NCBI GenBank assembly: GCA_028865545.1
Contig: JAGWJY010000028.1
Coordinates: forward strand, 1 to 47,495
Length of the DNA: 47,495 nt
Direction: 5' to 3'
DNA from: Alphaproteobacteria bacterium
GTDB taxonomy: Bacteria > Pseudomonadota > Alphaproteobacteria > Micropepsales > Micropepsaceae
In this document: one piece after another, positions 2,922 through 28,231 of the stretch
Layout: every line of letters begins with the position of its first letter
Position numbering within the stretch: position 1 is the stretch's first letter
Position numbers and translations under genes: made by a program
The notes under the pieces: generated by a model
Told to the model about the DNA's origin: nothing
Database searches by the model: none
The model's input: the letters and a program-made list of their open reading frames with translations, nothing else

Positions 2922-2940
2922 TACCAATTTTATTTCGCAT

Positions 2941-7464: not shown

Positions 7465-7490
7465 ATATTCACCCACTCGATAGTGAGTAT
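7465..7490 (+). promoter_or_regulatory. shared 26-bp operator, copy 1 (MFS-esterase operon)
   Basis: Half-sites ATATTCACCCA and ATAGTGAGTAT are separated by CTCG. The same dyad with the same 4-bp spacer precedes both TonB receptor genes. Read in the direction of transcription, GATAGT at positions 15-20 lines up with TATAAT and CATAAT of the other copies. The element may therefore cover the -10 box, with the RNA starting near its downstream end. The distance to the GTG at 7570 is 79 nt, as in the other copies. No good -35 box is seen, which suggests an activator or a repressed weak promoter. Confidence 0.7.
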
Positions 7491-7528
7491 TGACACGGCA
7501 GGTGGGGCTGCTGCATGTTGAACCGGAA

Positions 7529-7549
7529 AAATCGACAAAAGATCGATTT
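7529..7549 (+). promoter_or_regulatory. small hairpin in the leader of the MFS operon
   Basis: AAATCGA and TCGATTT (7-bp perfect arms) enclose a 7-nt loop, 7 nt before the AGGGAGG ribosome site at 7557-7563. It could modulate translation of the leader ORF. The stem is AT-rich and probably weak. Confidence 0.35.
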
Positions 7550-7569
7550 CAATAACAGGGAGGCGTCTT

Positions 7570-7677
7570 GTGCCCAGCGATGCCACCGCGCGAGCGGCCG
7601 CACAGCATACAGCTATTGAGTGTATACGGACCTTCGGGTCGCCATCAGCCGGTCAACGCCTCCGTGATGGCGTCTGA
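7570..7677 (+). CDS. 35-codon leader ORF before the MFS permease
   Basis: A GTG at 7570 has a near-perfect AGGGAGG ribosome site 6 nt upstream (7557-7563). It opens a 35-codon frame ending in TGA at 7675-7677. The frame is the same as that of the permease and is parted from it only by the TGA and one GCG codon. The permease ATG itself has no good ribosome site. The GTG lies 79 nt from the operator, matching the TonB genes. The peptide (starts MPSDATARAAAQ) resembles nothing I know. It may be a coupling or attenuation leader, or a former N-terminal extension cut by a stop mutation. Confidence 0.45.
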   Translation: MPSDATARAAAQHTAIECIRTFGSPSAGQRLRDGV

Positions 7678-7680
7678 GCG

Positions 7681-9024
7681 ATGGCAACGCACGATTCTCC
7701 AGCGCCGATCAGCCAGCACAAGCAGGTTGACCATTCGCAGATAGCACATTCTGCTACTCCCAGTTCTCGTGCCGGGATTGTCCTTGGCGTTCTATGCCTT
7801 GTGTATGTCCTGAACTTTCTGTGCCGGCAGCTGCCAGCCATCCTTGGCAAGCAGATCGAAGACAGTCTGCACCTTACCGATGGCCAGTTTGGGATGATTA
7901 CCGGCCTCTACTTCGCAATGTTTTACACCTTCATATCCATTCCAATCGGCTATCTCGCCGACAGGACGAGCAGGTCCAAGGTGCTGGCGCTCGCCTGCGC
8001 AATCTGGAGCGGGGCGACGATGGCCTGCGGCATGGCGGTCGGCTATGTGCAGTTTGCTATCAGCTTCGTGGTGGTCGGCTTCGGCGAAGCTGGCGGCGTT
8101 CCGCCTTCCTACGCGATTATCTCTGACTACTTCCCTCCCTCCCGCCGCGGATCAGCACTCGGGATATTCAACCTCGGGCCGCCTATCGGCGCAGCGCTTG
8201 GCGTCGCCTTTGGTGCATCCATCGCCGCCTCCTACGGTTGGCGCGCCGCATTCATTTCCCTTGGTGCTGTCGGTATTTTTGCGGTGCTGGGGATTCTCTT
8301 TATCGTACGCGAACCGCCTAAGGGTGGTCTGGATTCCCCGGCCGCGATGGCCACGGGCAAAGCGGGCTTTGGGGCGACCTTGGCGAACTTCTGTACGAAG
8401 CCTTCGCTTCTGCTTGCCGCGTTTGCGAGCGGCGCCAATCAGTTCGTCACCTACGGTATGGGCTATTTCGTCGTTATCTTCCTCTTGCGTGAAAAAGGGA
8501 TGACGCTCAAAGAAGTCGCTGTCTATTACGCGTTGGTCCTTGCCGTCGCGATGAGCGGCAGCATGTTTGTTTCCGGACGCTTGCTCGATTGGTTCACCAA
8601 GCGCTCGAAACAGGCCTATGCCCTGCTTCCCGCTATATCGCTTGTTTTCGCCATTCCGTTCTACATCGGGTTTGTATGGGCGCCAGTCTGGAGCACCGCC
8701 TTACTCTTCCTCTCCGGAACGATGTTCCTGAACTACTTCTATCTCACATCGTCCGTAACGCTTGTTCAGCAGGAAGTGCGGCCTGATCAGCGCGTCATGT
8801 CGGGCGCGTTACTGCTGCTGGTGATGAATTTCATCGGCCTCGGCCTCGGCCCCACTTACGTCGGCGCGGCCAGCGACTTCTTCCACGCGAGCTTTCCCCA
8901 TCACGCGCTGCAGATGGCGCTTTACACGCTGGTGCCGTTCTACGTCATAGCCATTGTGCTCTTCCTATGCTTGGCGCGCGTCCTGCGGAGGGAGAGTCGT
9001 ACAGCTGGAGAAAAGGTCCAATGA
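7681..9024 (+). CDS. spinster-like MFS transporter
   Basis: The 447-residue inner-membrane protein has about 12 hydrophobic segments, beginning near residue 31 after a soluble N-terminus. The major-facilitator loop 2-3 signature appears as GYLADRTSRSKV near residue 98. ADR.SR and the block SYAIISDYFPPSRRGSALGIFNLG place it with spinster-like MFS proteins common in sphingomonads and related bacteria. It probably moves the hydrolysis product or the small ester across the inner membrane. It is the first full gene of an operon: its stop overlaps the start of the next gene (ATGA), and esterase and lactonase genes follow. Translation may depend on coupling to the leader ORF, which ends 3 nt upstream. 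Confidence 0.88.
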   Translation: MATHDSPAPISQHKQVDHSQIAHSATPSSRAGIVLGVLCLVYVLNFLCRQLPAILGKQIEDSLHLTDGQFGMITGLYFAMFYTFISIPIGYLADRTSRSKVLALACAIWSGATMACGMAVGYVQFAISFVVVGFGEAGGVPPSYAIISDYFPPSRRGSALGIFNLGPPIGAALGVAFGASIAASYGWRAAFISLGAVGIFAVLGILFIVREPPKGGLDSPAAMATGKAGFGATLANFCTKPSLLLAAFASGANQFVTYGMGYFVVIFLLREKGMTLKEVAVYYALVLAVAMSGSMFVSGRLLDWFTKRSKQAYALLPAISLVFAIPFYIGFVWAPVWSTALLFLSGTMFLNYFYLTSSVTLVQQEVRPDQRVMSGALLLLVMNFIGLGLGPTYVGAASDFFHASFPHHALQMALYTLVPFYVIAIVLFLCLARVLRRESRTAGEKVQ

Positions 9025-10688
9025 TGTCGTTTCGTCGTTTGGTTGCCTCGGGTGCGACCGCCGCCTTTCTCGCACTGTCTCCCTCTTATTGTGCCGGGCC
9101 GGCCGCTTCGGCGCCGTCCGGCCCGATCGTAAATGCCCCAGCCGGCCAGTTGGCGGGGCTGACCGAAGGCACGCTGCACATCTTCAAAGGCATTCCCTAT
9201 GCCGAACCTCCAATCGGCTCCATGCGCTGGAAGCCGCCCGCACCGATGCCGCGGTGGAGGGGTGTAAGGCAGGCGACCGAATTCGGAGCCGCATGTTTCC
9301 AACCCAAGCCCAAAGTCCCGAACATCTATACGGCCGATCTGGGACGCATGAGTGAAGATTGCCTGACGCTGAACATCTGGGCTCCTGCCGGCGCCCGCGA
9401 TATGCCGATCTTCTTCTGGATCCACGGCGGCGCCCTGTGGGGAGATGCGAGCAAGGACCCACTTTACAACGGTGCCCGCATCGCCGCGCGTGGCCACGTC
9501 ATTGTGGTGTCCATCAACTACCGGCTGGGCGTGCTCGGCTGGCTGGCACATCCCGAGCTCAGCGCCGAGTCGCCACTCGGCATCTCAGGCAATTACGGCC
9601 TGCTCGACCAGATTCAGGCGCTCAAATGGGTGAAGCAGAATATCGGGGCCTTTGGCGGCGATCCCGCGAAGGTAACCATCGTCGGCGAATCCGCGGGCGG
9701 TCTCAGCGTCATGTACCTCATGGCGTCACCCGAGGCGCGCGGACTGTTTTCGAAGGCGATCGCGGAAAGCTCGTACATGGTCTCTACGCCGCTGCTGAAA
9801 GAGGGCAAATATGGAGCGCCGTCCGCCGAGCAGAGCGGCCTGGCGCTCGCCAAGGCGGTCAACGCGTCGAACCTCGCAGCCCTGCGGGCCATGGACCCGG
9901 GCGTGCTGACCGAGGACGCGGCGGCGAACCGCTTCGCCCCGTTCGCCGCCGTGGACGGCCACGTGCTCACGCACCAGATCACCGAGACCTTCGGCAAGGG
10001 TGAAGAGGCGCCAGTGCCGATCCTCGCCGGGTTCAACAGCGGCGAAATTCGCTCGCTCAGGGTCCTGGCGCCGCAGCCGCCCGCGTCGGCGGCCGAGTAC
10101 GAAAGCGTCATTCACAGTCAGTATGGCGATCTCGCCGATGAGTTCCTGCGCCTCTATCCCAGCACCAATCTGGAGGAGAGCATCCTGGCGACAACGCGCG
10201 ACATGCTGTACGGCTGGTCCGCAGAGCGTCTGGTGCGCCAGCAGACCGCGTTGGGCAAAGCCTCCTATTTATACTTCTGGGACCATGGCTATCCTGCCGC
10301 CGATGTGGCCCATCTGCACGGCTTCCACGCCAGCGAATTACCCTATGTCTTCGGTAACCTCGATAGCACGCCTCCGCTCTGGCCGAAGGTGCCGCAAACG
10401 CCAGAGCAAAGAAAGCTCTCGGACGCCATGATTGGGTACTGGACCAGCTTCGTGCGTACCGGCAAGCCTGTGGCCGCGAACGAGCCGGACTGGCCGGCCT
10501 ACGGATCGACGAGTGCCTACATGGACTTCACCGATGCCCCGCATCCGGCAGAACACGTCCTGCCGGGGATGTACAAGTTCAATGAGGAAGTCGTTTGCCG
10601 CCGCTGGGCTAGCGGGGACCAAGGCTGGAACTGGAACGTCGGCATTTGGGCGCCGAAGATTCCGCCGCAGAGCCCAAAGTGCCAGTGA
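9021..10688 (+). CDS. exported type-B carboxylesterase (CE1)
   Basis: This 555-residue protein belongs to the para-nitrobenzyl-esterase/type-B carboxylesterase family. A signal peptide is visible (FRRLVASGATAAFLALS..., possible cleavage after the CAGPAASA region). Motifs are EDCLTLNIWAP (family signature 2), IHGGAL (oxyanion), GESAGG with nucleophile Ser224, Glu342 in FNSGEIRSL and His436 in GFHASELPYVFG. The start ATG at 9021 overlaps the permease stop by 4 nt, with AAAAGG upstream, so translation is coupled. Such enzymes hydrolyse carboxylic esters, here probably in the periplasm. The protein is close to CE2 (same operon) and more distant from CE3. The natural ester is unknown. Confidence 0.92.
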   Translation: MMSFRRLVASGATAAFLALSPSYCAGPAASAPSGPIVNAPAGQLAGLTEGTLHIFKGIPYAEPPIGSMRWKPPAPMPRWRGVRQATEFGAACFQPKPKVPNIYTADLGRMSEDCLTLNIWAPAGARDMPIFFWIHGGALWGDASKDPLYNGARIAARGHVIVVSINYRLGVLGWLAHPELSAESPLGISGNYGLLDQIQALKWVKQNIGAFGGDPAKVTIVGESAGGLSVMYLMASPEARGLFSKAIAESSYMVSTPLLKEGKYGAPSAEQSGLALAKAVNASNLAALRAMDPGVLTEDAAANRFAPFAAVDGHVLTHQITETFGKGEEAPVPILAGFNSGEIRSLRVLAPQPPASAAEYESVIHSQYGDLADEFLRLYPSTNLEESILATTRDMLYGWSAERLVRQQTALGKASYLYFWDHGYPAADVAHLHGFHASELPYVFGNLDSTPPLWPKVPQTPEQRKLSDAMIGYWTSFVRTGKPVAANEPDWPAYGSTSAYMDFTDAPHPAEHVLPGMYKFNEEVVCRRWASGDQGWNWNVGIWAPKIPPQSPKCQ

Positions 10689-10700
10689 TCGTGAGAGAAT

Positions 10701-11579
10701 ATGAGCCGGCCGACGCGCGTTCTCTGCGATGATATTTGCTTTGGTGAAGCACCGCGTTGGCGTCAAGGCCGTTTGTGGTTCAGTGATTTCTTCGCCCATG
10801 CCGTGAAGTCGATTTCACTGGCCGGGGATTTGCGTACGGAAGTTGAGATAGATGACCAGCCTTCGGGACTGGGCTGGATGCCCGACGGATCGTTGCTGAT
10901 TGTCTCTATGATCAAGCGCCAGCTACTTCGTCGTTCGGTGGACGGTAAGATCAGTGTGCACGCCGACCTGAGCGGTATTGCCGGCTTTCACTGTAACGAC
11001 ATGGTGGTCGATGCTGAGGGCCGTGCCTATGTGGGTGAGTTCGGCTTCGATCTTCCGCAGGAAATGACGACACGTGGAGTCAAGAGCGTAATCGCAGATC
11101 ATCTGACAGCGAAGCTGGTTTGTGTGTCGGCCGATGGCGTGGCGTGCGAGGTCGCCAGCGATATGCATTTCCCGAACGGATCGGTGATTACGCCGGATGG
11201 CAAGATCCTCATTGTTGCCGAAACTCTCGGGCAGGCACTGACCGCCTTTGATATCGGCGCCGACGGGGCTCTGACCAACCGCCGGGTGTGGGCCAAAATT
11301 TCACCCCACCTCCCCGACGGGATCGCGTTGAATGCCGACGGGCATATCTGGGTGGCGGACTCTGTCACGCCAAAATGCATATTGTTCGCGCAAGGCGGCG
11401 CGGCTCTCGAGGTGATCGACACGGACGTGCCCTGTTATGCATGTATGCTCGGCGGCGACGACGGCCGCTCTCTGTTCATGCTCACCGCAACCTCATCTGA
11501 GGATGACGACGGGACCACATCGGTAAAGGGAAAGCTCTTGATTGCCACCGTGGATGTCCCGCACGCCGGACTGCCATAG
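10701..11579 (+). CDS. SMP-30/gluconolactonase family protein, cytoplasmic
   Basis: The 292-residue protein has the six-bladed propeller pattern of the SMP-30/gluconolactonase/LRE family. Metal- and substrate-site blocks are FGEAPRW near residue 15, HCNDMVVDAEGRAYVGEFGF near 98-117, FPNGSVITPDG near 156 and LPDGIALNADGHIWVAD near 203. There is no signal peptide. The family hydrolyses lactones or esters using a divalent cation. The gene begins 12 nt after CE1 and is followed by CE2, so the operon combines two kinds of ester/lactone-opening enzymes. The product may open a lactone formed from the substrate after uptake. Which lactone cannot be told. Confidence 0.88.
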   Translation: MSRPTRVLCDDICFGEAPRWRQGRLWFSDFFAHAVKSISLAGDLRTEVEIDDQPSGLGWMPDGSLLIVSMIKRQLLRRSVDGKISVHADLSGIAGFHCNDMVVDAEGRAYVGEFGFDLPQEMTTRGVKSVIADHLTAKLVCVSADGVACEVASDMHFPNGSVITPDGKILIVAETLGQALTAFDIGADGALTNRRVWAKISPHLPDGIALNADGHIWVADSVTPKCILFAQGGAALEVIDTDVPCYACMLGGDDGRSLFMLTATSSEDDDGTTSVKGKLLIATVDVPHAGLP

Positions 11580-11634
11580 GGTCGGTTTGGTTCTTGCTGT
11601 GCCGCCTTCCTATTGCTTCTCGCGGAGTCCAACT

Positions 11635-13224
11635 ATGTCAGGTTCAGCCCGCAACCCAATCGTAAATCCTCCGGCCGGTCAGGTGGAAGGCCGGACCGAG
11701 GGCAAATCACGCGTTTTCAAGGGCATCCCGTACGCTTTGCCTCCAGTGGGGTCTGCGCGCTGGAGACCACCCGTGCCCATGCCGAGGTGGGAAGGCGTCA
11801 GGAACGCAGCTGAGTTCGGGCCTGCGTGCTTCCAGCCCAAACCCCGACCCGGGAGTATTTACTTCGACCGCCCAGACGACCCGCTGCCTATGAACGAGGA
11901 TTGCCTGACGCTGAATATCTGGGCTCCCGCCGACGTACACAATGCACCGGTCTTTTTCTGGATCCATGGCGGCTCTCTGATCTGGGGAGCGAGCCGCGAG
12001 CCGTATTATGACGGCACTAGATTGGCCGAGCGCGGCATCGTCGTGGTTACGATCAATTACCGGCTTGGGGCCCTCGGTTGGCTGGCGCATCCGGAGCTCA
12101 GTGCAGAGTCGCCGCTGGGGATATCCGGCAATTACGGCCTGCTCGATCAGATCGAGGCGCTGCGATGGGTCAAAAAAAACATCGGCACCTTCGGCGGCGA
12201 TCCGTCGAACGTGACGATCGCGGGCGAATCCGCGGGCGCTCTTAGTGTCATGTACCTCATGGCGTCGCCCGAAGCTCGGGGATTGTTCGCGAAGGCCGTC
12301 GCGGAAAGTGCATACATGATCTCAACGCCAGAGCTGACGCAGCACAAATACGGCTCGCCGTCTGCTGAGGAAAGCGGCCTAAAGCTCGCTGCCGAGCTTC
12401 ACGCGCCGAATATAGCCGCGTTGCGGGAAATGGATCCGGGGAAGCTTGTTGAGGCCGCGGCAGCGGCTGGGTTTGGGCCGTGGGGTGCGATCGACGGACA
12501 GGTATTGCCGTGCCAGCTTGTCGATGTTTTCGACAAGGGTGAACAGGCGCCTGTACCGATCTTGGCTGGCTTCAACAGCGGCGAAATCCGCTCGTTGAGA
12601 TTCCTCGCCCCGCCACCTCCGGCCAACTCTGCCGAGTACGAAAGCATTATTCGCGATCGGTATGATGATCTTGCCGATGAATTCCTGCGGCTCTATCCCA
12701 GTACAGACATGCAGGAAAGCATATTGGCGACCGCACGCGACGCCCTTTACGGCTGGACTGCGGAGCGGCTCGCCAGAAAACAGGCCGCGCTCGGCTTGCC
12801 GTCTTATCTCTATGTCTTCGATCATGGCTACCCGGCCGCGGACGCTGCCGGTCTGCAGGGGTTCCACGCCAGCGAATTGCCCTATGTGTTCGGCACGTTC
12901 GATCGTACGCCGCCGCTGTGGCCGAAAGTTCCAGAAACGCCGAAAGAGCGGGAGCTCTCCAATGCGATGATCGGCTATTGGACCAGCTTCGCCCGCACAG
13001 GTCACCCGCAGGCGGTCAACGAACCGGATTGGCCCACCTATGAAACAGGTTCGTACATGGCGTTCAAAGATGCTCCGCGTCCGTCGGAGCGCATCTTGCC
13101 CGGGATGTATGAATTCAACGAGGCGGTCGTTTGCCGGCGCCGAGCGAGCGGGGACCTAGCCTGGAACTGGAACGTCGGTATCATCTCGCCGAAACTCCCG
13201 AGCCAGACGAAGCAGTGCGATTAA
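11635..13224 (+). CDS. type-B carboxylesterase (CE2), signal peptide apparently lost
   Basis: The protein has 529 residues from the ATG at 11635, which has GGAG 7 nt upstream. It is a paralogue of CE1 with the same landmarks: EDCLTLNIWAP, IHGGSL, GESAGA with Ser199, FNSGEIRSL and GFHASELPYVFG with His411. The frame is open upstream to 11542. That stretch encodes LVLAVPPSYC, which lines up with the end of the CE1 signal peptide (FLALSPSYC). It lacks a good start and would overlap the SMP-30 gene. I infer that the signal sequence decayed and that CE2 now works in the cytoplasm. An alternative ATG at 11554 would restore a short hydrophobic N-terminus. It is the last gene of the operon. Confidence 0.88.
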   Translation: MSGSARNPIVNPPAGQVEGRTEGKSRVFKGIPYALPPVGSARWRPPVPMPRWEGVRNAAEFGPACFQPKPRPGSIYFDRPDDPLPMNEDCLTLNIWAPADVHNAPVFFWIHGGSLIWGASREPYYDGTRLAERGIVVVTINYRLGALGWLAHPELSAESPLGISGNYGLLDQIEALRWVKKNIGTFGGDPSNVTIAGESAGALSVMYLMASPEARGLFAKAVAESAYMISTPELTQHKYGSPSAEESGLKLAAELHAPNIAALREMDPGKLVEAAAAAGFGPWGAIDGQVLPCQLVDVFDKGEQAPVPILAGFNSGEIRSLRFLAPPPPANSAEYESIIRDRYDDLADEFLRLYPSTDMQESILATARDALYGWTAERLARKQAALGLPSYLYVFDHGYPAADAAGLQGFHASELPYVFGTFDRTPPLWPKVPETPKERELSNAMIGYWTSFARTGHPQAVNEPDWPTYETGSYMAFKDAPRPSERILPGMYEFNEAVVCRRRASGDLAWNWNVGIISPKLPSQTKQCD

Positions 13225-13244
13225 TCGCGAGCGGTCGGCGTAGG

Positions 13245-13260
13245 GATCGCGACAGCGATC
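13245..13260. terminator. weak hairpin between convergent CE2 and CE3
   Basis: GATCGC and GCGATC enclose a GACA loop, 20 nt after the CE2 stop. A short TTTT follows 9 nt later on the plus strand. This is a possible but weak terminator in the 118-bp gap between two convergent esterase genes. Confidence 0.3.
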
Positions 13261-13342
13261 GATGGTGCTTTTGCTCAGGTGAACGGGTCGGGCGACAGAC
13301 CCAATAACCAGTTGGTTTGGCGCCGTGTCCCGGCCGCAACCT

Positions 13343-14980
13343 TCAGTGCGGCTCTGTCGTACTCAAAAGCTCGGGAGCGGCGACGCCGACATTGGCGCCC
13401 CATTGCTGGTCGCCGGCGCGGCGCCGCCGCTCCATCACCTCTTCGTTCAGCCTGTACATGCCGGGCATCAGGTCGGTCGAGACCTCGGGCTCCGCCGCGA
13501 AATGCATGTAGCGCTTGCCGGGCATGAAGCTGGGCCAGTTCGGCTCACCCTGCGCGGTGGGAACGCCGGTGCGCGCGAAGCTCGACCAGTAGGAGATCAT
13601 CGCGTCGGACAGCGCCACTTCCTTGGGCCCTTCCGGCGCCGGCCAGTTCGCCAGCTGCCGCTTGCCGACCCAGCCGAACACGTAAGGGATCTCGGAGGCG
13701 TGGAAGGCGTGCAGGCCGCGGGCTTGCGCCGCCGGATAGCCGTGATCGAAGAAATAGAGATAGGCCGGCTCGCCCCGCGCCGCCTCGTCGCGCACGATGC
13801 GCTCGGCGCCCCAGCCGAAGATGGCGTCGCGTTCCGCCGCCATCATGCTGGCCTTGACGTTGTCCGGCGGATAGAGCTTGAGGAACAGCGGCGCCAGATC
13901 GCGATAGCGCTCGCGGATGATCTTCTCATAGACCGCGCCCGACGTCGGCAATGATGGCGGCAGGAACTGCGGCAGGGTCTCGATCTCGCCGGCGTTGAAG
14001 CCCATCAGCACCGGCACCTTGGCCATTTCCTTGCTGTCGTAGACATCGACCAACTGGCGCGGCAGCACCCAGCCGTCGATGATGCCGGTGGCCCGGAACT
14101 TCGCCTTCAGGGCCTCCATGTTCAGCTTGGCGGCATCCATCGCCCGCAGCGCCTTGAGATCCGGGGCGCCCAGCGCCTTCTCGAGCTTGGTGCCGATCTC
14201 CTCGGCGGAAGGTATGCCGTGAGCCGCCTTCTTCAGTTCCGGTTCCGAATAGATGCCGAGGCTCTCGCCGATCGCCTTCTGGAACAGGCCGTGGGCCAAG
14301 GGGCTGGCCAGCAGATAGGCGACGCTGAGGCCGCCCGCCGATTCGCCCATGATGGTGACGTTGTCGGGATCGCCGCCGAAGGCCGCGATGTTCTTCTTGA
14401 CCCATTTGAGGGCCTCGATCTGGTCGAGGAGGCCGTAATTGCCCGACACGCCGTGCGGCGACTCGGCGCTCAGCGCCGGCAGGGCCAGCCAGCCCAGCGC
14501 GCCGAGGCGGTAGTTCATCGACACGAACACCACGCCGTGCGCGGCAAAGTTCGCACCGTCGTAAAACGGCTCCCAGGTGCTGCCGAAGACGAGGCCGCCG
14601 CCGTAGATCCACACGATGACGGGCGCCTTCTTCGCATGCGGCGGCGCCCAGACGTTGAGGAACAGGCAGTTCTCGCTACCCTTCGGGATGTTGTCATTAT
14701 AGACGACCTGCTTGGGCCATGGCGGCTGGATGCAGGCGTCGCCGAACTTGCTTGCGTCGCGCACGCCCTTCCAGGCGGCGGCGGGGACCGGCGCGGTCCA
14801 GCGCTTGGCGCCGACGGGCGGCTCGGCATAGGGAATTCCCTTGAAGGCGTGCATGCCCGAGGCGTCGACCTCTCCCATGAGCGCACCTTGCGCGATGGTG
14901 ACCACGGGCCGCGGCGCGGCCGTGGCGCCGGTAAGCGAAACCGCCATCGCCATCGAGGCCCAGAACTTCACGTTTGCCAT
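13343..14980 (-). CDS. exported type-B carboxylesterase (CE3)
   Basis: The protein has 545 residues from the ATG at 14980, which has GGAGGAAACG directly upstream. A signal peptide is clear (FWASMAMAVSLTGATAA). Motifs are SENCLFLNVWAP (EDC signature with Asp replaced by Asn), IYGGGL oxyanion, GESAGG with Ser214, FNAGEIETL and FHASEIPYVFG. It is more diverged from CE1 and CE2 than they are from each other, and looks more GC-rich. It is the last gene of a reverse cluster: TonB receptor 1, CoA-transferase 1, SDR, CE3. The SDR stop lies 36 nt upstream. It probably hydrolyses the imported ester in the periplasm. Confidence 0.92.
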   Translation of the reverse strand: MANVKFWASMAMAVSLTGATAAPRPVVTIAQGALMGEVDASGMHAFKGIPYAEPPVGAKRWTAPVPAAAWKGVRDASKFGDACIQPPWPKQVVYNDNIPKGSENCLFLNVWAPPHAKKAPVIVWIYGGGLVFGSTWEPFYDGANFAAHGVVFVSMNYRLGALGWLALPALSAESPHGVSGNYGLLDQIEALKWVKKNIAAFGGDPDNVTIMGESAGGLSVAYLLASPLAHGLFQKAIGESLGIYSEPELKKAAHGIPSAEEIGTKLEKALGAPDLKALRAMDAAKLNMEALKAKFRATGIIDGWVLPRQLVDVYDSKEMAKVPVLMGFNAGEIETLPQFLPPSLPTSGAVYEKIIRERYRDLAPLFLKLYPPDNVKASMMAAERDAIFGWGAERIVRDEAARGEPAYLYFFDHGYPAAQARGLHAFHASEIPYVFGWVGKRQLANWPAPEGPKEVALSDAMISYWSSFARTGVPTAQGEPNWPSFMPGKRYMHFAAEPEVSTDLMPGMYRLNEEVMERRRRAGDQQWGANVGVAAPELLSTTEPH

Positions 14981-15016
14981 CGTTTCCTCCACTGGTGCCG
15001 TCCGTTGCGGCAAATC

Positions 15017-15778
15017 CTAATACAGTTTCGTGGTGTCCCCGCCGTTGAGGGGCAGCGCCGTGCCGTTGACGAAGCCCGCCCTGTCCGAACAGAGCCATGC
15101 CACGGTGTCGGCGATCTCCTGAGCCTCGCCCAGGCGGTTCATCGCCGAATGACGCTCGATGATGGGGGCCAGCTTGTCGACATAAGGATCCACCATTTCG
15201 GAATGGGCATAGCCCGGGCAGATCGCATTGACGCGGATTCCCTTGAGCCCGTAATCGACGGCGGCCGATTTGGTGAGGCCGACCACGCCGAACTTGCTGG
15301 CACAGTAGGAAGCGTGACCGAAATCGCTCGGGATCAGCCCGTAGACCGAGGCGTTGTTCACGATGGCGCCTTTGCCATGCTCCAGCATGGCGGGGATCTC
15401 GTACTTCATGCACAGCCAGACGGACTTGAGATTGGAGTTCATCACCGCATCCCAGGCGTCTTCCTTGATTTCAGCGACCGGCCGGCGGGTGGGCCCGGTA
15501 ATGCCAGCATTGTTGAAGGCGCAATCCAATCGGCCGAATTTGGCGAGCGTTGCAGCGACCATTGCCTCGACCTCTGTCGGTTTGGTCACATCTGTCTGGA
15601 CGAACAGCCCTTCGCCACCAAGCGCCGCAATTTGTGCGACGACCTCCTCGCTCCGATCCTTTCGGCGCGCCGCCACCACGACCCGCGCTCCTTGGCGGGC
15701 GAATTCCAGAACCGTAGCCGCTCCAAGCCCGGAGCTTCCACCAGTTACGATCGCCACTTTGCCGTCCAACATCTTCAT
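15017..15778 (-). CDS. short-chain dehydrogenase/reductase (SDR), classical
   Basis: The protein has 253 residues from the ATG at 15778, with AGGCGGA 7 nt upstream. The frame is open to 15871, but the extra 31 residues are not SDR-like and would cover an inverted repeat. The classical Rossmann features are TGGSSGLG (12-19), NNAG (89-92), catalytic Ser144, Tyr158 and Lys162 in YCASK, and PG after IRVNAIC. The cofactor region AARRKDR carries basic residues after the second strand, which may favour NADP. Family members oxidise or reduce secondary alcohols and ketones. Between a CoA-transferase and an esterase gene, an action on a hydroxy acid released from an ester is plausible. Confidence 0.92.
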   Translation of the reverse strand: MKMLDGKVAIVTGGSSGLGAATVLEFARQGARVVVAARRKDRSEEVVAQIAALGGEGLFVQTDVTKPTEVEAMVAATLAKFGRLDCAFNNAGITGPTRRPVAEIKEDAWDAVMNSNLKSVWLCMKYEIPAMLEHGKGAIVNNASVYGLIPSDFGHASYCASKFGVVGLTKSAAVDYGLKGIRVNAICPGYAHSEMVDPYVDKLAPIIERHSAMNRLGEAQEIADTVAWLCSDRAGFVNGTALPLNGGDTTKLY

Positions 15779-15844
15779 AGACGTTTCCGCCTGTGCGATT
15801 GCCTCTCGGGAGTCGCTGCCGTGGTTCCAGTTTCCCTTCAGCGT

Positions 15845-15871
15845 GTGGTTTGGGAGAATTGCCCAAACCAC
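15845..15871. promoter_or_regulatory. 10-bp perfect inverted repeat before the SDR-CE3 genes
   Basis: GTGGTTTGGG and CCCAAACCAC enclose a 7-nt centre, 67 nt before the SDR start and 83 nt after the CoA-transferase stop. No T-run follows on the minus strand, so an operator or an RNA-processing hairpin is more likely than an intrinsic terminator. It does not match the 26-bp operator. Confidence 0.5.
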
Positions 15872-15953
15872 CTTTGGAGGCGAACTGCCGGGATGCGGTA
15901 CTAGTTACCAAAAATCGTTATCTGGCTCATTGCTGCTGCCGTCTTCGTTCATC

Positions 15954-17492: not shown

Positions 17493-17507
17493 GAGAGAGC
17501 GAACGAT

Positions 17508-19916: not shown

Positions 19917-19993
19917 GATCCCTCCCTACGGCGGTTGCTCCCCGCGCTCTTCGGCGCATGAGGAAATCATGCATGGCATTCATTCGGGAAAAA

Positions 19994-20019
19994 ATACTAA
20001 TTATAATAATAGTGAATAA
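19994..20019 (-). promoter_or_regulatory. shared 26-bp operator, copy 2 (TonB receptor 1)
   Basis: On the plus strand the half-sites are ATACTAATTAT and ATAGTGAATAA, separated by AATA. In the direction of transcription a perfect TATAAT occupies positions 15-20 of the element, as expected for a -10 box overlapped by an operator. The near edge is 78 nt from the receptor ATG. The leader RNA also has the block ATGCGCC...GCGCGGGGA shared with receptor 2. Confidence 0.72.
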
Positions 20020-20563: not shown

Positions 20564-21607
20564 TCAGGTCAGGTTCGCGCCCTTGGTCCTGAGTCGCATG
20601 CGGGCGACGGTGTCGGTGGCGGCGATGAAGAACGTGAAGCCGTCCTCGCCGAAGGCGCTGTTGGTGGCGTAGCGGCCGGGGAATTCGATCACGCCCAGCA
20701 ATTTGCCCTCCGGCGAGATTACGAAATGGCCGCCCGGTCCGGCCGCGAAGATATTGCCGTGCACGTCGATCTTCATGCCGTCGGGCACGCCGATCACGCC
20801 GGGTGCGAAATGGGGGCGGAAGTCGAAGAAGGTCGAATGGCTTACCGGCATGCCGTCGGCGCCCAGCTTATAGGCGCGGATGATCGCGAGCTTTTGATCG
20901 GTGTTGCAGACGAAGAGCGTCTTCTGGTCGGGCGCGAGCGCGATGCCATTGGGATAGAGGAATTCCTTGTCGAGCAACGCCATCTTGCCGTCCGGCGTCA
21001 GGCGATAGATGCCGCTGAAGTCGAGCTCTTTGACCGGCGATTTCTCGAGGCCCTCGAGCCCGTAAGGCGGATCGGTGAAATAGATGGCACCCGACTTGTC
21101 GATGGCAAGGTCGTTGGGGCTGTTGAGGCGCTTGCCCTCGAAGCGATCCACAAGCGTTGTGCGCTTCCGCGTCGCGAGATCGCAGCGATCCACCGAACGG
21201 CCGCCAGAATTGCAGATGATCAGCTTGCCCGCGTGATCAATCGCCAGGCCGTTCGAGCCAGGCTCGCGTATTGTCGGCGGCGGCGGCCCCGCAAGGCCGG
21301 CAGGCGCGATATAAGCCGTAACGCCGTCCTTGCGCGACCAGCGATATATTGTGTTTGCCGTCGGTCCCAGATTGCTGAACAGCAGAAAACCACCTTGCTT
21401 CACCCAGACCGGCCCTTCCGTCCATGAGAATTCGGAGGCGATCTCCTCGATCTTGATGTCGCGGGCGATCAGCGCGTCGAGCGCCGGATCCAGCCGGCGC
21501 ACGCGGGCGTAGGGCTGCGCGGCGAAAGCAGGAGCCGCAGCAAACGGAAAGGCCACACCCGCGGCCAAGAGCGCGCGGCGCGTCGGTTTGTTCGACTGAG
21601 ACGGCAT
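20564..21607 (-). CDS. exported SMP-30/gluconolactonase family protein
   Basis: The 347-residue protein starts at an ATG with GGAGGAGAAAAGC upstream. Its N-terminus is a twin-arginine-type signal (TRRALLAAGVAF, then AAAPAFA), so it is exported folded. The propeller core shows the family blocks: WTEGPVW near 61, NGLAIDHAGKLIICN near 118, LNSPNDLAIDKSGAIYFTDPPYG near 160 and YPNGIALAPDQ near 217, with the metal ligands Glu, Asn and Asp in these blocks. It resembles periplasmic gluconolactonases more than the cytoplasmic SMP-30 at 10701. It lies alone on the minus strand between TetR and TonB receptor 1. It probably opens sugar or other lactones in the periplasm; the substrate is unknown. Confidence 0.9.
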   Translation of the reverse strand: MPSQSNKPTRRALLAAGVAFPFAAAPAFAAQPYARVRRLDPALDALIARDIKIEEIASEFSWTEGPVWVKQGGFLLFSNLGPTANTIYRWSRKDGVTAYIAPAGLAGPPPPTIREPGSNGLAIDHAGKLIICNSGGRSVDRCDLATRKRTTLVDRFEGKRLNSPNDLAIDKSGAIYFTDPPYGLEGLEKSPVKELDFSGIYRLTPDGKMALLDKEFLYPNGIALAPDQKTLFVCNTDQKLAIIRAYKLGADGMPVSHSTFFDFRPHFAPGVIGVPDGMKIDVHGNIFAAGPGGHFVISPEGKLLGVIEFPGRYATNSAFGEDGFTFFIAATDTVARMRLRTKGANLT

Positions 21608-22228
21608 GCTTTTCTCCTCCCGGTCGGCCTCTTATGGGCCATGCCGAACACTGCACCGTCCTCACCCGCAAGTGCAAATCGTTCCCGTTATTCGAGCGTG
21701 CCCGGCTGGAAGCGGGCAGGATGATCGCGGGACAGACCCTTGCGATCAAGTGCGATGCGGTCCCGGAAGGCATGGCGAATGTCAGTCATGCGCTGCAATC
21801 AAAATGGGTGCACGGCAGACGACGGCGGCATAAATGTGCGTTTTTTGGTGAATATCGTCGAAAGCATACGAACGCGAGAAAGTACTGGTTTCAGTCCAAA
21901 CAACACTCTCTTCTCAGGTGAAGCGGAATTGTCTTCGTGGTTCGATCTGCAGCGCCCGCGTCAAGGTTTGCAAATGCCCGCCATGAAGCTAAGAAGCCAA
22001 AAAATAGGCCGGCGCCGGAAAGCAACTTTTCGAAACGTATCGGCGCTTTCTGCCCCTTCAAATCTGTCCCCGAACGTTAGGGGCTGGGGTTAAGTGGCCA
22101 TGCCGGGCGACGCAAAGGGTCATTCAAACGCACCCCTTTTTGCCGTCATATTCGCTCTGCCCGGAGCCGCTTAAACTCATGGCTAATGACGACAGTCTGG
22201 TCGTGCTTTCGCCCTATCGGGCGCCCCT
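21608..22228. other. gene-free stretch between SMP-30 and TetR
   Basis: These 621 bases separate two minus-strand genes. A plus-strand frame at about 21634-21921 encodes a Lys/Arg-rich peptide that I do not recognise and that lacks a ribosome site. A small CCCC-N8-GGGG hairpin lies near 22068-22083. I see no tRNA, insertion sequence or shared operator here. Confidence 0.5.
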
Positions 22229-22972
22229 TCACTCCTTTAGGGCGAGGAAGCCTGCCGCCATGAATTTGGCAATCCGCTTTTTGACCGCAGGAAAATCATC
22301 GGAGTGGCAGACGCCGCCCGACAGACGATCGATTCGTCCAGTGCGGCCGAGCGTATTCATCAATGCGCCCGTCACGAAATTGTAGCCCCAGAATAGGTCC
22401 TCGTCGCTGTAGCCCGGCAGTGCCCGTCGCAATATGCTGATGAGCTTGAGCACGACGGGATCGAAGTGGACTTTCATCATCATCGCCCCTTCGGGCGTGT
22501 TGCTGACGCGGGCGACGAACGCGGCGTAATTCATCCACAGCTCACCGCCCTCGAAGTATAAATCCAAATCGGTGTCCAGGAACGCGTGAAGCGCGCCCTC
22601 GACCGTGGGGTGATCTCCGGCCTCTGCTTCGTATTTTTCGAGCGCAGCCATACGGCGGCCGCAGGTGACACCGGCGCGCCGTTCGAACACCGCGTCAAAC
22701 AGGTTGCGCTTGTCCTCGAAATAGTAATGAAGGAGGGTTGTGTGGATGCCGACGCGCTCGGCCACGTCGCGGAGGGTTACGCCATAAAAACCATTCTTCG
22801 AGAACAGATACTCAGCCGCATCGAGAATCTGCTCCAGACTTTCCGCGCGCTGCTCCGCCTTGCTGCGACGGCGGCGTTTCTCAGTCGAACCTTCCAACAT
22901 TGCGCTCATCGCGCCAATCCTTTTGCCACTAGGCGAGATCGGCCGAGTCAAACCCCTCAAACGTTGATTCAT
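22229..22972 (-). CDS. TetR/AcrR family regulator, candidate regulator of the ester regulon
   Basis: The protein has 247 residues from the ATG at 22972, or 226 from the ATG at 22909. The first start overlaps the stop of an acyl-CoA-ligase relic as ATGA; the second has AAGGA at a long spacing. The TetR helix-turn-helix is clear (ILDAAEYLFSKNGFYGVTLRD, split here as VTLRDVAERVG and IHTTLLHYYFEDKRNLFDAVF). The C-terminal ligand domain is specific to a small-molecule class I cannot name. The gene lies between the two TonB/CoA-transferase modules, which carry the 26-bp dyad, a typical kind of TetR target. I therefore infer that it controls them. Only one 8-nt half-site match (22979-22986) is seen before its own gene. 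Confidence 0.88.
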   Translation of the reverse strand: MNQRLRGLTRPISPSGKRIGAMSAMLEGSTEKRRRRSKAEQRAESLEQILDAAEYLFSKNGFYGVTLRDVAERVGIHTTLLHYYFEDKRNLFDAVFERRAGVTCGRRMAALEKYEAEAGDHPTVEGALHAFLDTDLDLYFEGGELWMNYAAFVARVSNTPEGAMMMKVHFDPVVLKLISILRRALPGYSDEDLFWGYNFVTGALMNTLGRTGRIDRLSGGVCHSDDFPAVKKRIAKFMAAGFLALKE

Positions 22973-23060
22973 TCAGCCGTGAATATGCTATTGGCGTAGT
23001 AGGCACGCAATTGGTTCTTGTCAATCTTTCCAGTGGCGACTAGCGGCCTTTTGGCACGCG
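22969..23060 (-). pseudogene. C-terminal relic of an AMP-dependent acyl-CoA ligase
   Basis: Directly upstream of the TetR gene, the minus strand encodes RAKRPLVATGKIDKNQLRA and ends 12 residues later at TGA (22969-22971). ATGKIDK..LR is the A10 motif with the catalytic lysine found near the C-terminus of acyl-CoA ligases. A stop in the same frame lies just before it and no further ligase sequence is visible, so only about 30 residues survive. The stop overlaps the TetR ATG (ATGA), which suggests a former ligase-tetR operon. Activation of the acid may have passed from a ligase to the CoA-transferases. Confidence 0.6.
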
Positions 23061-23252
23061 GTCATTTCGGCTTTGGATTATGTGTCTGTTTCTATTTGCC
23101 AAGCGCGCCAGTTTGGCATCGGGTTGACATCTACTCGCTTTGGTCTGGTATTTCGATATTAGGTGTCAGCGGCAGCGCCAAATGCATGAAGAATAGGCAC
23201 TCTGGAAAGACGTGCGGCTTTCCACAGGACTGTCTCCATCGGTCTTCACGGT

Positions 23253-24626
23253 TTACGACGCTACTCGGCTCTCGCGCGCTACTTTTTGTGGCAGGTATAT
23301 TGCGCGCGGGATGAGCCGATTCTCGTGGGCTTGGCGCTCAAGCTCTTCGCGGAAATCGGGATGGGCCAGCGAGATCATGGCTTGGGCGCGTTCCGCCACC
23401 GACTTTCCTTTCAGATTGACCACCCCGTATTCTGTAACGACATACATGATATCGGTGCGTGGCGTGGTGACAATGTTGCCCGGTGTGAGGTCGAGGACGA
23501 TACGACTCTTGCGGACACCTTTCTTTTCGAAAACTGAGGAGAGGCACATGAAGGACTTGCCCCCATTTGAGGCATAGGCGCCGCGCGCATATTGGAGCTG
23601 GCCGCCCGTCCCGGAAATATGGCGATGACCGTCAGATTCCGATGCCGCCTGTCCTTGCAGGTCCATCTGCGTCGTGCTGTTGATTGAAAAAACCTTGTCG
23701 TTCTGCATGATAACATGCGGAAGGTTTGTGTGCTCGGTGCCGCAGCACAGCATGTCGGGATTGTCGTTTATCGCGTCGTACATGAACTTCGTACCAAGCC
23801 CAAACGTAAAGACGACTTTTCCGATGTCGAGCTTCTTGCGTGCGCCGGTGACGACGCCTGCCTTGTACAGCTCAATCAGGCCGTCGGTCAGCATTTCGGT
23901 ATGAACGCCGAGGTCTTTCGCGCCTGATTCCAGAAGCAAGGAACAAACGGCATTGGGCATTCCGCCGATGCCGATTTGCAGGCAGGCGCCATCTTCCACT
24001 TCGGCCGCAACCCTGCGGGCAACGGCACGATCGACATCGGTTATCAGCGGGCTTTTGAGTTCCGGGAGAGGCGCATTATCGCCGTCGATGATGTAATCAA
24101 CCTCGCTGATGTGAATGCCATTATCCACTCCGTGTACATGGGGAACGGCTGTTGATGTCTCGACGATCAGCGTCTTCGTGCGTTCGACAAGAGTTCTAAA
24201 CCACGCATTAGTCGGACCAAAATTGAAGTGTCCGTTTGCATCGGCCGGTCGCACTTTCAGCACGACGATGTCGATCGGAGCGATGAAGCGGCGATAGTAG
24301 TCGTTAATTTCGCCAAGATTGGGCGGCATGTGGTAACAAATGCCGGCGTCGGCTTTTGCACGTTCGTAGGCGCTGAAGTGCCAGGTATAATAATGAAAAT
24401 GGTTTCCTTCAGGGTCGCTCTCAAGCACCGCCCGCGGCTTCGCGGCGAGACTAGAGCGGATTCCCACGTTCGAAAGTTCGCGAACGCGCGCGGCGAGCGC
24501 CTGGTCAAACACGTCCGGCTGGGCGAGGCAGGCACCGAAATCGAGCCAATAGCCCGATTGCACCAGAGCAGCCGCTTCAGCGGCGGTGATCTTCTTCGCG
24601 GGCGCCGATGACATGCGCGTGGACAT
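23253..24626 (-). CDS. acetyl-CoA hydrolase/CoA-transferase family protein 2
   Basis: The protein has 457 residues, the same length as the protein at 15954-17327. Long stretches are identical, including IGIGGMPNAVCSLL, HTEMLTDG, GQAASESDGHRHISGTGGQ and VTEYGVVNLKGKS. Differences cluster around GPTNAWFRTL (145-155) and KFMYDAINDN (about 285), where substrate choice could differ. The reaction is expected to be the same: transfer of CoA from acetyl-CoA to a carboxylic acid. The codons look more AT-rich than those of copy 1, so the two copies may have been gained separately. GGAGG lies upstream of the ATG. It follows TonB receptor 2 after a hairpin, and no SDR or esterase gene follows it. Confidence 0.88.
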   Translation of the reverse strand: MSTRMSSAPAKKITAAEAAALVQSGYWLDFGACLAQPDVFDQALAARVRELSNVGIRSSLAAKPRAVLESDPEGNHFHYYTWHFSAYERAKADAGICYHMPPNLGEINDYYRRFIAPIDIVVLKVRPADANGHFNFGPTNAWFRTLVERTKTLIVETSTAVPHVHGVDNGIHISEVDYIIDGDNAPLPELKSPLITDVDRAVARRVAAEVEDGACLQIGIGGMPNAVCSLLLESGAKDLGVHTEMLTDGLIELYKAGVVTGARKKLDIGKVVFTFGLGTKFMYDAINDNPDMLCCGTEHTNLPHVIMQNDKVFSINSTTQMDLQGQAASESDGHRHISGTGGQLQYARGAYASNGGKSFMCLSSVFEKKGVRKSRIVLDLTPGNIVTTPRTDIMYVVTEYGVVNLKGKSVAERAQAMISLAHPDFREELERQAHENRLIPRAIYLPQKVARESRVAS

Positions 24627-24760
24627 GGGAGGTACCTTTCTGCAACCATTCTGCGATTGAAATTACAGGCGCAACAAAAGCCGAACGCTCAACCCATTTC
24701 GCGTTCGAGCGGTAGAACTGCATGATCATGTTTGTACGAATTTGGACGAGAGGCGTCGGC

Positions 24761-24785
24761 CGCCGGCTGGTTGTTACGGCCGGCG
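24761..24785 (-). terminator. hairpin after TonB receptor 2
   Basis: CGCCGGC and GCCGGCG form a 7-bp stem with an 11-nt loop, 34 nt after the receptor stop. It corresponds in position, sequence and loop length to the hairpin after TonB receptor 1. No good T-run follows, so termination may be partial. Confidence 0.5.
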
Positions 24786-24819
24786 ACCGATCGGGTTTCA
24801 AGTCAGTCTGAGCTCTGCA

Positions 24820-27117
24820 TCACCACACCTTCAGCAACCGGATACCGAATTGGCGTGGCGCTCCGGCGAAACGAAGGCCGGAATTGAGGGCCGCCTCGTA
24901 ATGTTGGTCCGTAAGGTTGGTGCTGTAGAGCGTCAAGAGATAGTCGTTGTGCTTCAACTCGAGCTGCGCACCCAGAATATTACGAGCGGCCAGCAGATCT
25001 CCTTGTGACTGATTGTCGAACAACGTCGCATACTGTGGGTTCTGATGTGAGAAATTGACACGAGGCGTCAGTGTGTCGCCGTTGCCGAGATCGAACCGGT
25101 ATTCTGCGCTTAAGTTGTAGGAAACATCAGGCGCATAGGTCTGCGGATGTCCTTTCAGGTTGACGCAAGTGCCAAATGCGTTGGAGGGCCCGGTCAGCGG
25201 ATCGCATGGTAAAGCGACTGGTATCCTCGGATCCGTCGCATAAAACCCGCCCAGCGCGGTATGCATCAGGCCGACGCCGGCGCTAAACGACAAGTTCCCG
25301 AATGAGGCCTGGGTTTCGCCTTCGAAGCCGTAAATCTGGCTTGGTTTAGGATCGTTGACTTCAAATCCGAACACCGGGAAGGCCGGATAACCGATGGTGA
25401 CTTGGAAGTGCTGATAGTTGTTGTAGTAAGCATCCATCTGGGTACGCATGTGCCCATCGAGCCATGTCGCTTTCCAGCCGGTTTCATATGACTGCACTCT
25501 CTCCGGACCAAACGGTGCAGGGGTGCCTATGCCTACCGGGACGTTGAGACCACCGGGCTTGTAGCCGGTCGAAACAAAGGCGTAAGCAAAGTTGTTGTCA
25601 TTGATGGTCCAATTCAGGGAGGCCTTATAGTCGAAGCTGTAAGATTTTTCGGACTGATTGATACTTAAGAGCGTTCCGTATTGCAGGATATTAAGGTCAA
25701 CGTTCTTCGTCTTTTCAGTGGTCCAGCGCGCGCCTAACTGCAATTGGAGGCCGCTTACCACATTGAAGCCGACTTGACCAAAGCCTGCCCATGAAATGTT
25801 GGGAGTAGTGCCCTCGAGCTCATAATTATTCGCCAAAACATCCGGACTTCCGTTTGCAGGCTGACCGATGACAAACTGATAGGGTGACTTATAGTTGTAC
25901 CGGTCTTGCTGAGCCCATGCGCCGAGAACCCATGTGACACGCTGATTGTCCGGCGAAATTAAATTGAACTCCTGTGACCAGATGCTTTCGCCCACTATGT
26001 CCCAGAAGAACCAATTTGCCGGTGTGCCGGCTGAGGCCAAACTTCCATAATCCGTTCCGTCCAAATCTGTCTTGTAATTGGTGATGCCGGTTTGATAGCC
26101 CGATACGGATCGAAGCTTGATGCCATCGGGGAGCACATAGTCCACCTTCAGCACGGACCGGGTGAACTTGTCCTGCCCCAAATTGGCGTAGTTCTGCGTG
26201 ATGTGGAAGATATCGGAGTAATGCGGGTTGGGAGTGGTGCTGCCGAAAGGAAAAGTTTTGAAGCCTTCATAATACGGACTAGCAGGGTACCCGCCGAAGT
26301 CGAGGTAGTCGGCATCCGTTTTGATCGAGACGGTCAACGCCTCGGTGGGTTTCCAAAGAACGCTCACACGGGCGGCGCCGATTTGAAGATCGCCCGGGTT
26401 GTAGCTGTGCTTGCAGCCCGAATACTTCTGACCGGGGCAATTGTCCGCTGCGCTGCTGTCCGTGATGCTGTAGAAACTACTTCTCGCTTCACCGTACACT
26501 GCAACGCGCGCCGCCAAGGTGTCGCTGATCGGAATGTTGACAGCGCCCTGCAGCTGACCATCGTTGTAGTTGCCGTATTGGGCCTGTGCGTAACCATCAT
26601 AACCGCCGCCGATTGTCGGGTCATTCGAGTTGACCAAGACAGCGCCGCCGGTCGCGGACTGGCCTACGAAAGTACCTTGCGGGCCGCGCAACACTTCGAT
26701 GCTCGCGATGTCGTAGTACGGCTCTCCCGTGAAATAGCCGGGGAAGGTCGCCACACCGTCACGGTACGTGATCACGCCCGTCATCGTTTGAGAGTTGTGC
26801 TCGCCCTTGCCGATGCCGCGAATGTTGAAATCGATGCCTTGACCAAAGTTGTCGACCGTCACGGTAGGTGCGATGAACTGCAGATCATCGACCGACGTGA
26901 CGCCCTTGGCTGCAATGTCCTCTCCGCTCAAAACGTCAACAGCAATAGGCGTCGTCATCAGATTTTCGGTTCGACGCTCGGCGGTGACAACGACGGTCTC
27001 TATGGTCGCGCTGCTGTTTTGGTCCGTGGATGCTGACGAAGCCGCATCTGCTAACGCAGTGCTGTACCAAGCCAGCGTGAGCGCGGATGCGCCCAGCCAC
27101 ATTGCATGGGTCCTCAT
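24820..27117 (-). CDS. TonB-dependent outer-membrane receptor 2
   Basis: The 765-residue paralogue of receptor 1 has a signal peptide (ending near TALADA), a TonB box ETVVVTAERR near 41-50, and plug blocks NIRGIGKGEHN and IEVLRGPQGTFVGQSATGGAV. The barrel ends in FGIRLLKVW. It keeps the cysteine-bearing loops (DNCPGQKYSGC; CDPLTG...GTC before GHPQTYAP). The plug is much more conserved than the barrel loops, as expected if the two receptors take related but different ligands. GGAGGG precedes the ATG. The shared operator is 82 nt upstream, in the gap shared with the divergent SDR-thiolase operon. Confidence 0.93.
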   Translation of the reverse strand: MRTHAMWLGASALTLAWYSTALADAASSASTDQNSSATIETVVVTAERRTENLMTTPIAVDVLSGEDIAAKGVTSVDDLQFIAPTVTVDNFGQGIDFNIRGIGKGEHNSQTMTGVITYRDGVATFPGYFTGEPYYDIASIEVLRGPQGTFVGQSATGGAVLVNSNDPTIGGGYDGYAQAQYGNYNDGQLQGAVNIPISDTLAARVAVYGEARSSFYSITDSSAADNCPGQKYSGCKHSYNPGDLQIGAARVSVLWKPTEALTVSIKTDADYLDFGGYPASPYYEGFKTFPFGSTTPNPHYSDIFHITQNYANLGQDKFTRSVLKVDYVLPDGIKLRSVSGYQTGITNYKTDLDGTDYGSLASAGTPANWFFWDIVGESIWSQEFNLISPDNQRVTWVLGAWAQQDRYNYKSPYQFVIGQPANGSPDVLANNYELEGTTPNISWAGFGQVGFNVVSGLQLQLGARWTTEKTKNVDLNILQYGTLLSINQSEKSYSFDYKASLNWTINDNNFAYAFVSTGYKPGGLNVPVGIGTPAPFGPERVQSYETGWKATWLDGHMRTQMDAYYNNYQHFQVTIGYPAFPVFGFEVNDPKPSQIYGFEGETQASFGNLSFSAGVGLMHTALGGFYATDPRIPVALPCDPLTGPSNAFGTCVNLKGHPQTYAPDVSYNLSAEYRFDLGNGDTLTPRVNFSHQNPQYATLFDNQSQGDLLAARNILGAQLELKHNDYLLTLYSTNLTDQHYEAALNSGLRFAGAPRQFGIRLLKVW

Positions 27118-27199
27118 ATTCCCTCCGGAAGGTTCGTTTCCCCGCGCACTCTATTATTGGCGCATTGTGCCACACTGCAACAAATTCACTAGACACACA

Positions 27200-27225
27200 A
27201 TACTGATTATGTCGATAGTGAATGT
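27200..27225. promoter_or_regulatory. shared 26-bp operator, copy 3 (TonB receptor 2 / SDR-thiolase)
   Basis: Half-sites ATACTGATTAT and ATAGTGAATGT are separated by GTCG. In the receptor direction CATAAT fills the -10 position of the element. The near edge is 83 nt from the receptor ATG and the other edge is 114 nt from the divergent SDR start, so one protein could control both operons. A lone half-site-like AAATTCACTAG lies at 27182-27192. Confidence 0.7.
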
Positions 27226-28230: not shown

Positions 28231-28231
28231 C

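Follow-up and report, generated by a model that had tools for sequence, protein, structure and literature searches.

Probable TetR operators of 26 bp before receptor, transporter and esterase genes in a Micropepsaceae contig

Closest described regulators

Two Pseudomonas regulators of the TetR family, NicR2 and PsrA, are the nearest described counterparts of the system considered here: a 26-bp element that recurs before uptake and ester-cleavage genes in an Alphaproteobacteria bacterium of the Micropepsaceae (GenBank assembly GCA_028865545.1, contig JAGWJY010000028.1, positions 1 to 47,495, a complete contig that is called the window) and that is most probably the operator of a TetR protein encoded between its copies. 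NicR2 of Pseudomonas putida S16 (PDB 5fgl, 5fhp) governs a catabolic cluster including mfs and porin genes and is reported to place two dimers on each inverted repeat (PMC6550519); its 20-bp repeats, of the kind CTATATGTACAGCCATATAA, overlap the -35 and -10 boxes, whereas the 26-bp operator here ends at -35. For PsrA, a review, which gives the rpoS site position relative to the start codon, describes an upstream site for rpoS activation and a site from -18 to +20 for autorepression (PMC13104628), and these two positions resemble the two operator positions found here. Dimer-of-dimers operators of the QacR/CprB type extend over 22-32 bp and hold two dimers, while single dimers occupy 15-17 bp (PMC4150764); the 26-bp operator falls in this long class, its stoichiometry being read here from sequence alone.

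The window's TetR protein (22229-22972, minus strand) carries the Pfam domains TetR_N (2.2e-13) and TetR_C_30 (7.6e-30), and its AlphaFold model is all helical with a mean pLDDT of 81.6. NicR2 is its best PDB match in sequence (2.1e-17) and fold (TMq 0.72-0.73), the 22-24% identity over the fold match falling short of close identity, and PsrA (PDB 2fbq) is the third-best sequence match (2.9e-15), with 54.4 bits against the NCBIfam PsrA model NF053516, below its cut-off of 300. The PsrA operator, TTCAAAC-N4-GTTTGAA, also has TTCA...TGAA ends, but with an N10 spacing instead of N12, and its consensus is not matched by the matrix-derived consensus of the operator here, ATATTCAYTMW-N4-WKARTGAATAT. 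Receptor, major facilitator superfamily (MFS) and esterase genes are the targets here, unlike those of PsrA, which controls rpoS and fatty-acid genes and has a fatty-acid ligand; thiolase and hydroxyacyl-coenzyme A (CoA)-dehydrogenase-like genes do lie nearby in the window. Although regulators of this type are familiar, the circuit itself seems to be undescribed: the regulon, its -35 register and the relation between single and interleaved operators were not found described in the literature searched.

Three strong sites and their co-occurrence with the TetR gene

Read in transcription direction, the three strong sites are ATATTCACCCACTCGATAGTGAGTAT (7465-7490, plus strand), which precedes a putative operon of leader open reading frame (ORF), MFS and esterase genes, TTATTCACTATTATTATAATTAGTAT (19994-20019, minus strand), which precedes TonB-dependent receptor 1, and ACATTCACTATCGACATAATCAGTAT (27200-27225, minus strand), which lies between receptor 2 and a divergent short-chain dehydrogenase (SDR) gene. 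All begin with WYATTCAC and end with AGTAT, and their positions 15-20 read GATAGT, TATAAT and CATAAT, exactly as an earlier sequence-only reading of this DNA had described them. A refined matrix, built from the relatives' sites and the window, scores them at 32.5, 31.4 and 26.9 bits, respectively, and none of 100 shuffles of the window exceeds 20 bits. The pattern ATTCAC-N13-AGTAT matches three times in the 3,405,138-base genome, each time inside the window, and its reversed control matches nowhere. At up to 3 mismatches, the relatives' consensus recovers exactly the three strong sites in the window (none in 100 dinucleotide shuffles) and three places in the whole genome (none for the reversed control), and a stricter consensus, derived from sites 2 and 3 alone, finds at the same tolerance only these two sites in the genome. 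Many equally good matches elsewhere did not turn up in these scans of the genome. A loose pattern gives 13 strand-hits in the organism's own genome against 3 in the control; beyond the window's sites, the one hit that was retrieved, on contig C26 (13.8 bits), lies inside an open reading frame and was set aside as chance.

The element is conserved at nearly all loci with a close orthologue of the TetR protein. Of the 21 such loci outside the window, 20 were taken (63-86% identity; G005, at 59%, was omitted), and a site of at least 18 bits is present in 18 of them with a four-site matrix and in 19 after refinement, while three shuffles of these 329 kb give nothing above 17 bits. The exception, L047, has its contig cut inside the receptor gene, and on another contig of that genome two sites stand beside the remainder of a receptor gene and an MFS gene. 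In a collection of loci from named organisms, 29 of the 30 that hold an orthologue have sites above 14 bits, or 24 of 25 new ones once the five that repeat matrix loci are discounted, the single miss being L115, whose TetR identity is 47%; none was found above 14 bits in 37 control loci of more distant TetR proteins. With repeats and L115 removed and the window included, 44 of 45 distinct loci carry a site above 18 bits, in keeping with the proposed shared operator of a regulon for uptake and ester cleavage. The element stands mostly before TonB-receptor and MFS-esterase genes. TetR and sites occur together in Caulobacter, Phenylobacterium, Sphingomonas, Qipengyuania and Stenotrophomonas tumulicola. 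The last of these, a gammaproteobacterium, has the TetR gene, an SDR gene, a receptor match, MFS-esterase genes and operators, which suggests horizontal transfer of the module.

The linkage extends to whole genomes. Among 90 genomes of the same family, a site is found in 21 of the 22 with a close TetR orthologue and in 9 of the 68 without (Fisher p = 1.6e-12), where close means E of at most 8.3e-84, a cut set post hoc at a gap in the scores (the next being 1.2e-62), and genomes with weaker TetR relatives count as without. The 22 orthologue genomes hold 52 sites (reversed control 0) and the other 68 hold 10 (control 4); at least two sites are present in 19 of the 22 and in 1 of the 68. No 26-bp site is present in the nine genomes of the family that have a best TetR match between 1e-43 and 1e-63. 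Outside this count, the scan covered 57 genomes from other families of the class, some with many pattern matches, and control counts were similar in several. The co-occurrence of a conserved palindrome with the nearby tetR gene favours the protein encoded at 22229-22972, named at the outset as the candidate regulator, as the most likely one. Position 8 of the operator varies with the recognition helix of the TetR protein, C being favoured in sites of the HTTLL clade and T in sites of the HTSLM clade, a difference confounded with ancestry and not used as proof.

Operator architecture, promoter position and mode of action

The 11-4-11 dyad originally proposed holds in that the 11-bp arms of each strong site have 7 of 11 symmetric pairs, but the element is better described as an outer TTCA-N12-TGAA that encloses a second, weaker copy shifted by 4 bp. 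The TTCA of the outer copy, at position 4, agrees on average in 3.51 of 4 letters, and the TTCA-like inner element, at position 8, in 2.29 of 4 against 0.88 expected. In the 45 main loci, TTCA-Nx-TGAA (x from 0 to 20) is commonest at N12, with 50 matches (33 inside called sites), followed by N8, with 22 (19 inside called sites). Two N8 sites offset by 4 bp reconstruct the 26-bp operator. Of 87 main sites, 15 contain exact N8 pairs, and 18 of the 19 cases are at register 4 or 8. The short form appears by itself in 23 loci with diverged TetR proteins (L115, L168 and L172-L192; identity 33-54%), which gave no sites to the matrix: N8 reaches 20 matches and N3 14, the other spacings 0-6, while the 37 control loci show 1-14 per spacing and no such peak (N8 7, N12 12). 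All 20 N8 matches lie outside genes matched by window proteins, the only genes mapped there; they fall in 12 of the 23 loci. In 11 of these, one match adjoins tetR or precedes a receptor gene, and the twelfth, L184, has two of them farther away. The N3 matches look like coding sequence, because of their G+C-rich context and their recurrence at matching places in related loci. A TonB receptor match is present in 18 of the 23 loci, and in L172 a variant site of the ATATTGACT... form stands before the receptor gene in the same -35 register as described below. From this spacing pattern we infer that the long operator would bind a pair of dimers and the short N8 form one.

In most of the receptor and MFS promoters compared, the operator lies directly upstream of the -35 box. 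For each distinct locus, the nearest upstream site above 16 bits within 350 nt of a receptor or MFS1 gene was taken, giving 60 promoters (34 receptor, 26 MFS1), and in 48 of them the last T of the operator is the first T of TTGAC (TTGA in 53). In the window this is seen at operator 1, whose final base opens a TTGACA at 7490-7495 (plus strand) in a register conserved in relatives, followed after an 18-nt spacer by a putative -10 box, CATGTT (7514-7519, plus strand); spacers of 17-18 to weak -10-like boxes recur, with CATGNT before MFS genes. The operator would span about -60 to -35. The earlier suggestion that it covers the -10 box was accordingly dropped: positions 15-20 vary in relatives, and TTGAC follows at a fixed place with a one-base overlap. 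Palindromes of 26 bp anchored on TTGAC were also sought in the relatives' loci, and none reaches 9 of 13 pairs. When all 107 distinct sites scoring more than 18 bits are taken, TTGA stands at the register on one or both sides of 78; the register is also present at a FabI-like gene (L156) and on the SDR side of L155. In receptor-2 promoters of the window's genus, the -35 box is degraded (TTGTGT, TTGATT twice, TTGCAA and TTGCAT) and the operator is kept.

A different arrangement is seen at the tetR gene. Operator 4 (22961-22986, minus strand; 13.6 bits, with 0.05 matches above 13.5 bits expected per shuffled window) retains one exact TTCA-N8-TGAA pair and follows, in the direction of transcription, a putative tetR promoter (TTGACA 23024-23019, TACTAC 23001-22996, minus strand), where autorepression would be expected to act. 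The statement that the window holds no further copy thus stands for strong matches, this weak site having been missed. The same order, TTGACA and a -10-like hexamer followed by the operator, is found in L038, L039 and L040, and the true tetR start is probably near 22906, because the matches of 21 close orthologues begin at residues 9-33.

Collectively, these features point to a circuit in which two TetR dimers would sit on the two interleaved TTCA-N8-TGAA sites, a ligand from the ester pathway (the released acid or its acyl-CoA) would alter binding, and receptor, transporter, esterases and CoA-activating enzymes would be induced together, while the weaker site downstream of the tetR promoter would limit the regulator's own expression. 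That the elements are operators of this TetR protein and control an uptake and ester regulon is held with good confidence; how it acts on the promoters is judged more cautiously. Activation and repression at the structural genes are almost equally likely; our narrow preference, put at somewhat under an even chance, is activation in the manner of PsrA from just upstream of -35, with repression of tetR itself. We lean to this dual function because the two operator positions match those of PsrA at rpoS and psrA, and its odds are lowered because the register fails for most targets outside the receptor and MFS1 promoters. The fuller scheme, in which a branch of alphaproteobacterial TetR regulators doubled its operator to two N8 copies interleaved at a 4-bp offset in the -35 register, the protein activates receptor and esterase operons and represses itself, and distant relatives bind one N8 site, is doubtful as a whole.

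Several observations count against parts of this interpretation. The orthologue loci were picked by TetR, so only the genome-wide count tests the linkage independently, and that count is compatible with another regulator that always co-occurs. L036 and L037, which have the closest TetR proteins, share the tetR promoter without the operator. In the main loci N18 (16) and N9 (15) come near N8 (22), the rest being 0-9, and the outer TTCA in part dictates the N8 registers 4 and 8. At the -35 register, window sites 2 and 3 read TTTTTT and TTGTGT and are among the 12 of 60 promoters without TTGAC; 29 of the 107 sites lack TTGA on both sides, and GH1 sites are off by one. For targets other than receptor and MFS1 genes, TTGA stands at offset 0 in only 4 of 20 site-gene pairs (two esterase, one SDR and one upstream of tetR, in L093), many of these 20 sites being shared with a divergent promoter; the register as a rule for every target was rejected on this count, and it could have been inherited within two promoter classes. 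Finally, most TetR proteins are repressors.

The last point speaks for the same TetR protein and operator working as a plain repressor, with sigma blocked from the -35 box until a ligand releases it, much as in NicR2, a reading that we regard as a serious possibility and rank only just behind activation. The one-base overlap with the -35 box suits it, and the failure of the register in 16 of the 20 pairs may mean that the register is inherited and not required. The nearest fold, NicR2, is reported to repress with two dimers over -35/-10 (PMC6550519), but its sites cover -35 to -10, whereas the site here ends at -35. Retention of the operator beside a degraded -35 box at the genus's receptor-2 promoters suits an activator, and at tetR the site is downstream of the promoter, so that the two positions differ as they do for PsrA (PMC13104628). 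It is improbable that the operator belongs to some other, unlinked regulator that just happens to accompany the cluster: the TetR linkage is correlative, but the sites follow TetR into Caulobacter, Phenylobacterium, Sphingomonas, Qipengyuania and Stenotrophomonas, some stand before tetR, and the nine same-family genomes with intermediate TetR matches lack the 26-bp site, the N8 form being frequent at loci of this kind. That the likeness is a remnant of the receptor-CoA-transferase duplication plus chance, without regulatory meaning, has a negligible chance of being right and is largely refuted by the genome-wide co-occurrence and the control loci, since receptor promoters 1 and 2 do share further leader sequence but the remaining site stands before an MFS gene unrelated to them, sites are present in 44 of 45 distinct loci and 0 of 37 control loci has a match.

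For TetR operators in general, the relation between the single and interleaved forms bears on how they lengthen, and the -35 register bears on whether regulators of this group activate or repress. The analysis also yields a consensus and a set of target operons for a TetR group repeatedly found alongside TonB-dependent receptor genes, in alphaproteobacteria and in one Stenotrophomonas, where substrate and regulator could be found together.

Leader ORF and gene content of the cluster

Between operator 1 and the MFS gene lies a 35-codon leader ORF (7570-7677, plus strand) with a GTG start and a GGGAGG ribosome-binding site, its TGA separated by 3 nt from the MFS start, ATG 7681, before which no ribosome-binding site is seen. 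The sequence-only reading had placed each strong site 78-83 nt before a first start codon; for site 1 that codon, GTG 7570, opens the leader, and the site is about 190 nt from the MFS gene itself. A short closed ORF of 22-35 codons, which starts 69-80 nt beyond the operator and stops close to the MFS start, is present in 18 of the 26 MFS1 promoters, at least ten of them with the stop-N3-start spacing; in six (L052, L094, L098, L102, L103 and L105) the same start is apparently the MFS start itself, and L046 and L050 offer no clear case. The peptides are conserved only between close relatives, so that translational coupling is more likely to be the leader's role than a sensing peptide.

Downstream of the leader, the putative operator 1 operon continues on the plus strand with the MFS transporter (7681-9024; Pfam MFS_1, 2.2e-45), a type-B carboxylesterase (8967-10688, start probably near 9021; Pfam COesterase), an SMP-30/gluconolactonase-like protein (10701-11579; Pfam SGL) and a second type-B carboxylesterase (11542-13224; Pfam COesterase). 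A type-B esterase is also found with receptor and permease genes in the fumonisin-degradation cluster. The third PDB match of the esterase at 11542-13224, after carboxylic ester hydrolase 8wdm/8xrz, is fumonisin B1 esterase 8s6d (2e-77), a resemblance that gives no evidence for fumonisin as the substrate. Operator 2 precedes, on the minus strand, TonB-dependent receptor 1 (17508-19916; Pfam Plug), an acetyl-CoA hydrolase/CoA-transferase family protein (15954-17327; Pfam, nearest PDB entries 4-hydroxybutyrate CoA-transferases), an SDR (15017-15871; Pfam adh_short) and a type-B carboxylesterase (13343-15013; Pfam COesterase). Operator 3 is flanked on one side by receptor 2 (24820-27117, minus strand; Pfam Plug) and a CoA-transferase paralogue (23253-24626, minus strand; Pfam), and on the other by a divergent SDR resembling (3R)-hydroxyacyl-CoA dehydrogenase (27340-28230, plus strand) and a thiolase (28202-29407, plus strand; Pfam Thiolase_N/C). 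The SDR is a possible second target of operator 3, and no TTGA faces it there. The tetR gene and a further SMP-30/gluconolactonase-like gene (20564-21607, minus strand; Pfam SGL) lie between operators 2 and 3; in the three relatives scanned at that place (L041, L044 and L053), the gene adjoining tetR encodes an acyl-CoA ligase. Because of this content (esterases, CoA-transferase or acyl-CoA ligase, and SDR), the cluster suggests a pathway of ester uptake, cleavage, CoA activation and beta-oxidation. In the name ester-uptake regulon, the shared operator is borne out, and ester uptake itself is taken from gene content; the matches of the esterase, SDR, CoA-ligase and CoA-transferase give the enzyme class only and identified no substrate.

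Rfam at gathering scores gives no match in the window. The leader of receptor 1 contains a short GC-rich inverted repeat, TGCGCCGAAGAGCGC (19944-19958), with similar repeats in receptor leaders of relatives; the form TGCGCC-gaag-AGCGC has 9 genome matches against 6 in the control, which is no clear enrichment. Near the regulon, at 1413-4288, an ScfR-type regulator (Pfam ScfRs, short-chain fatty acyl-CoA regulator) is divergent from an isocitrate lyase gene, and beyond the regulon, at 31046-45483, lie genes for a GH2/mannosidase-like protein, a GH115 protein and a bacterial alpha-2-macroglobulin.

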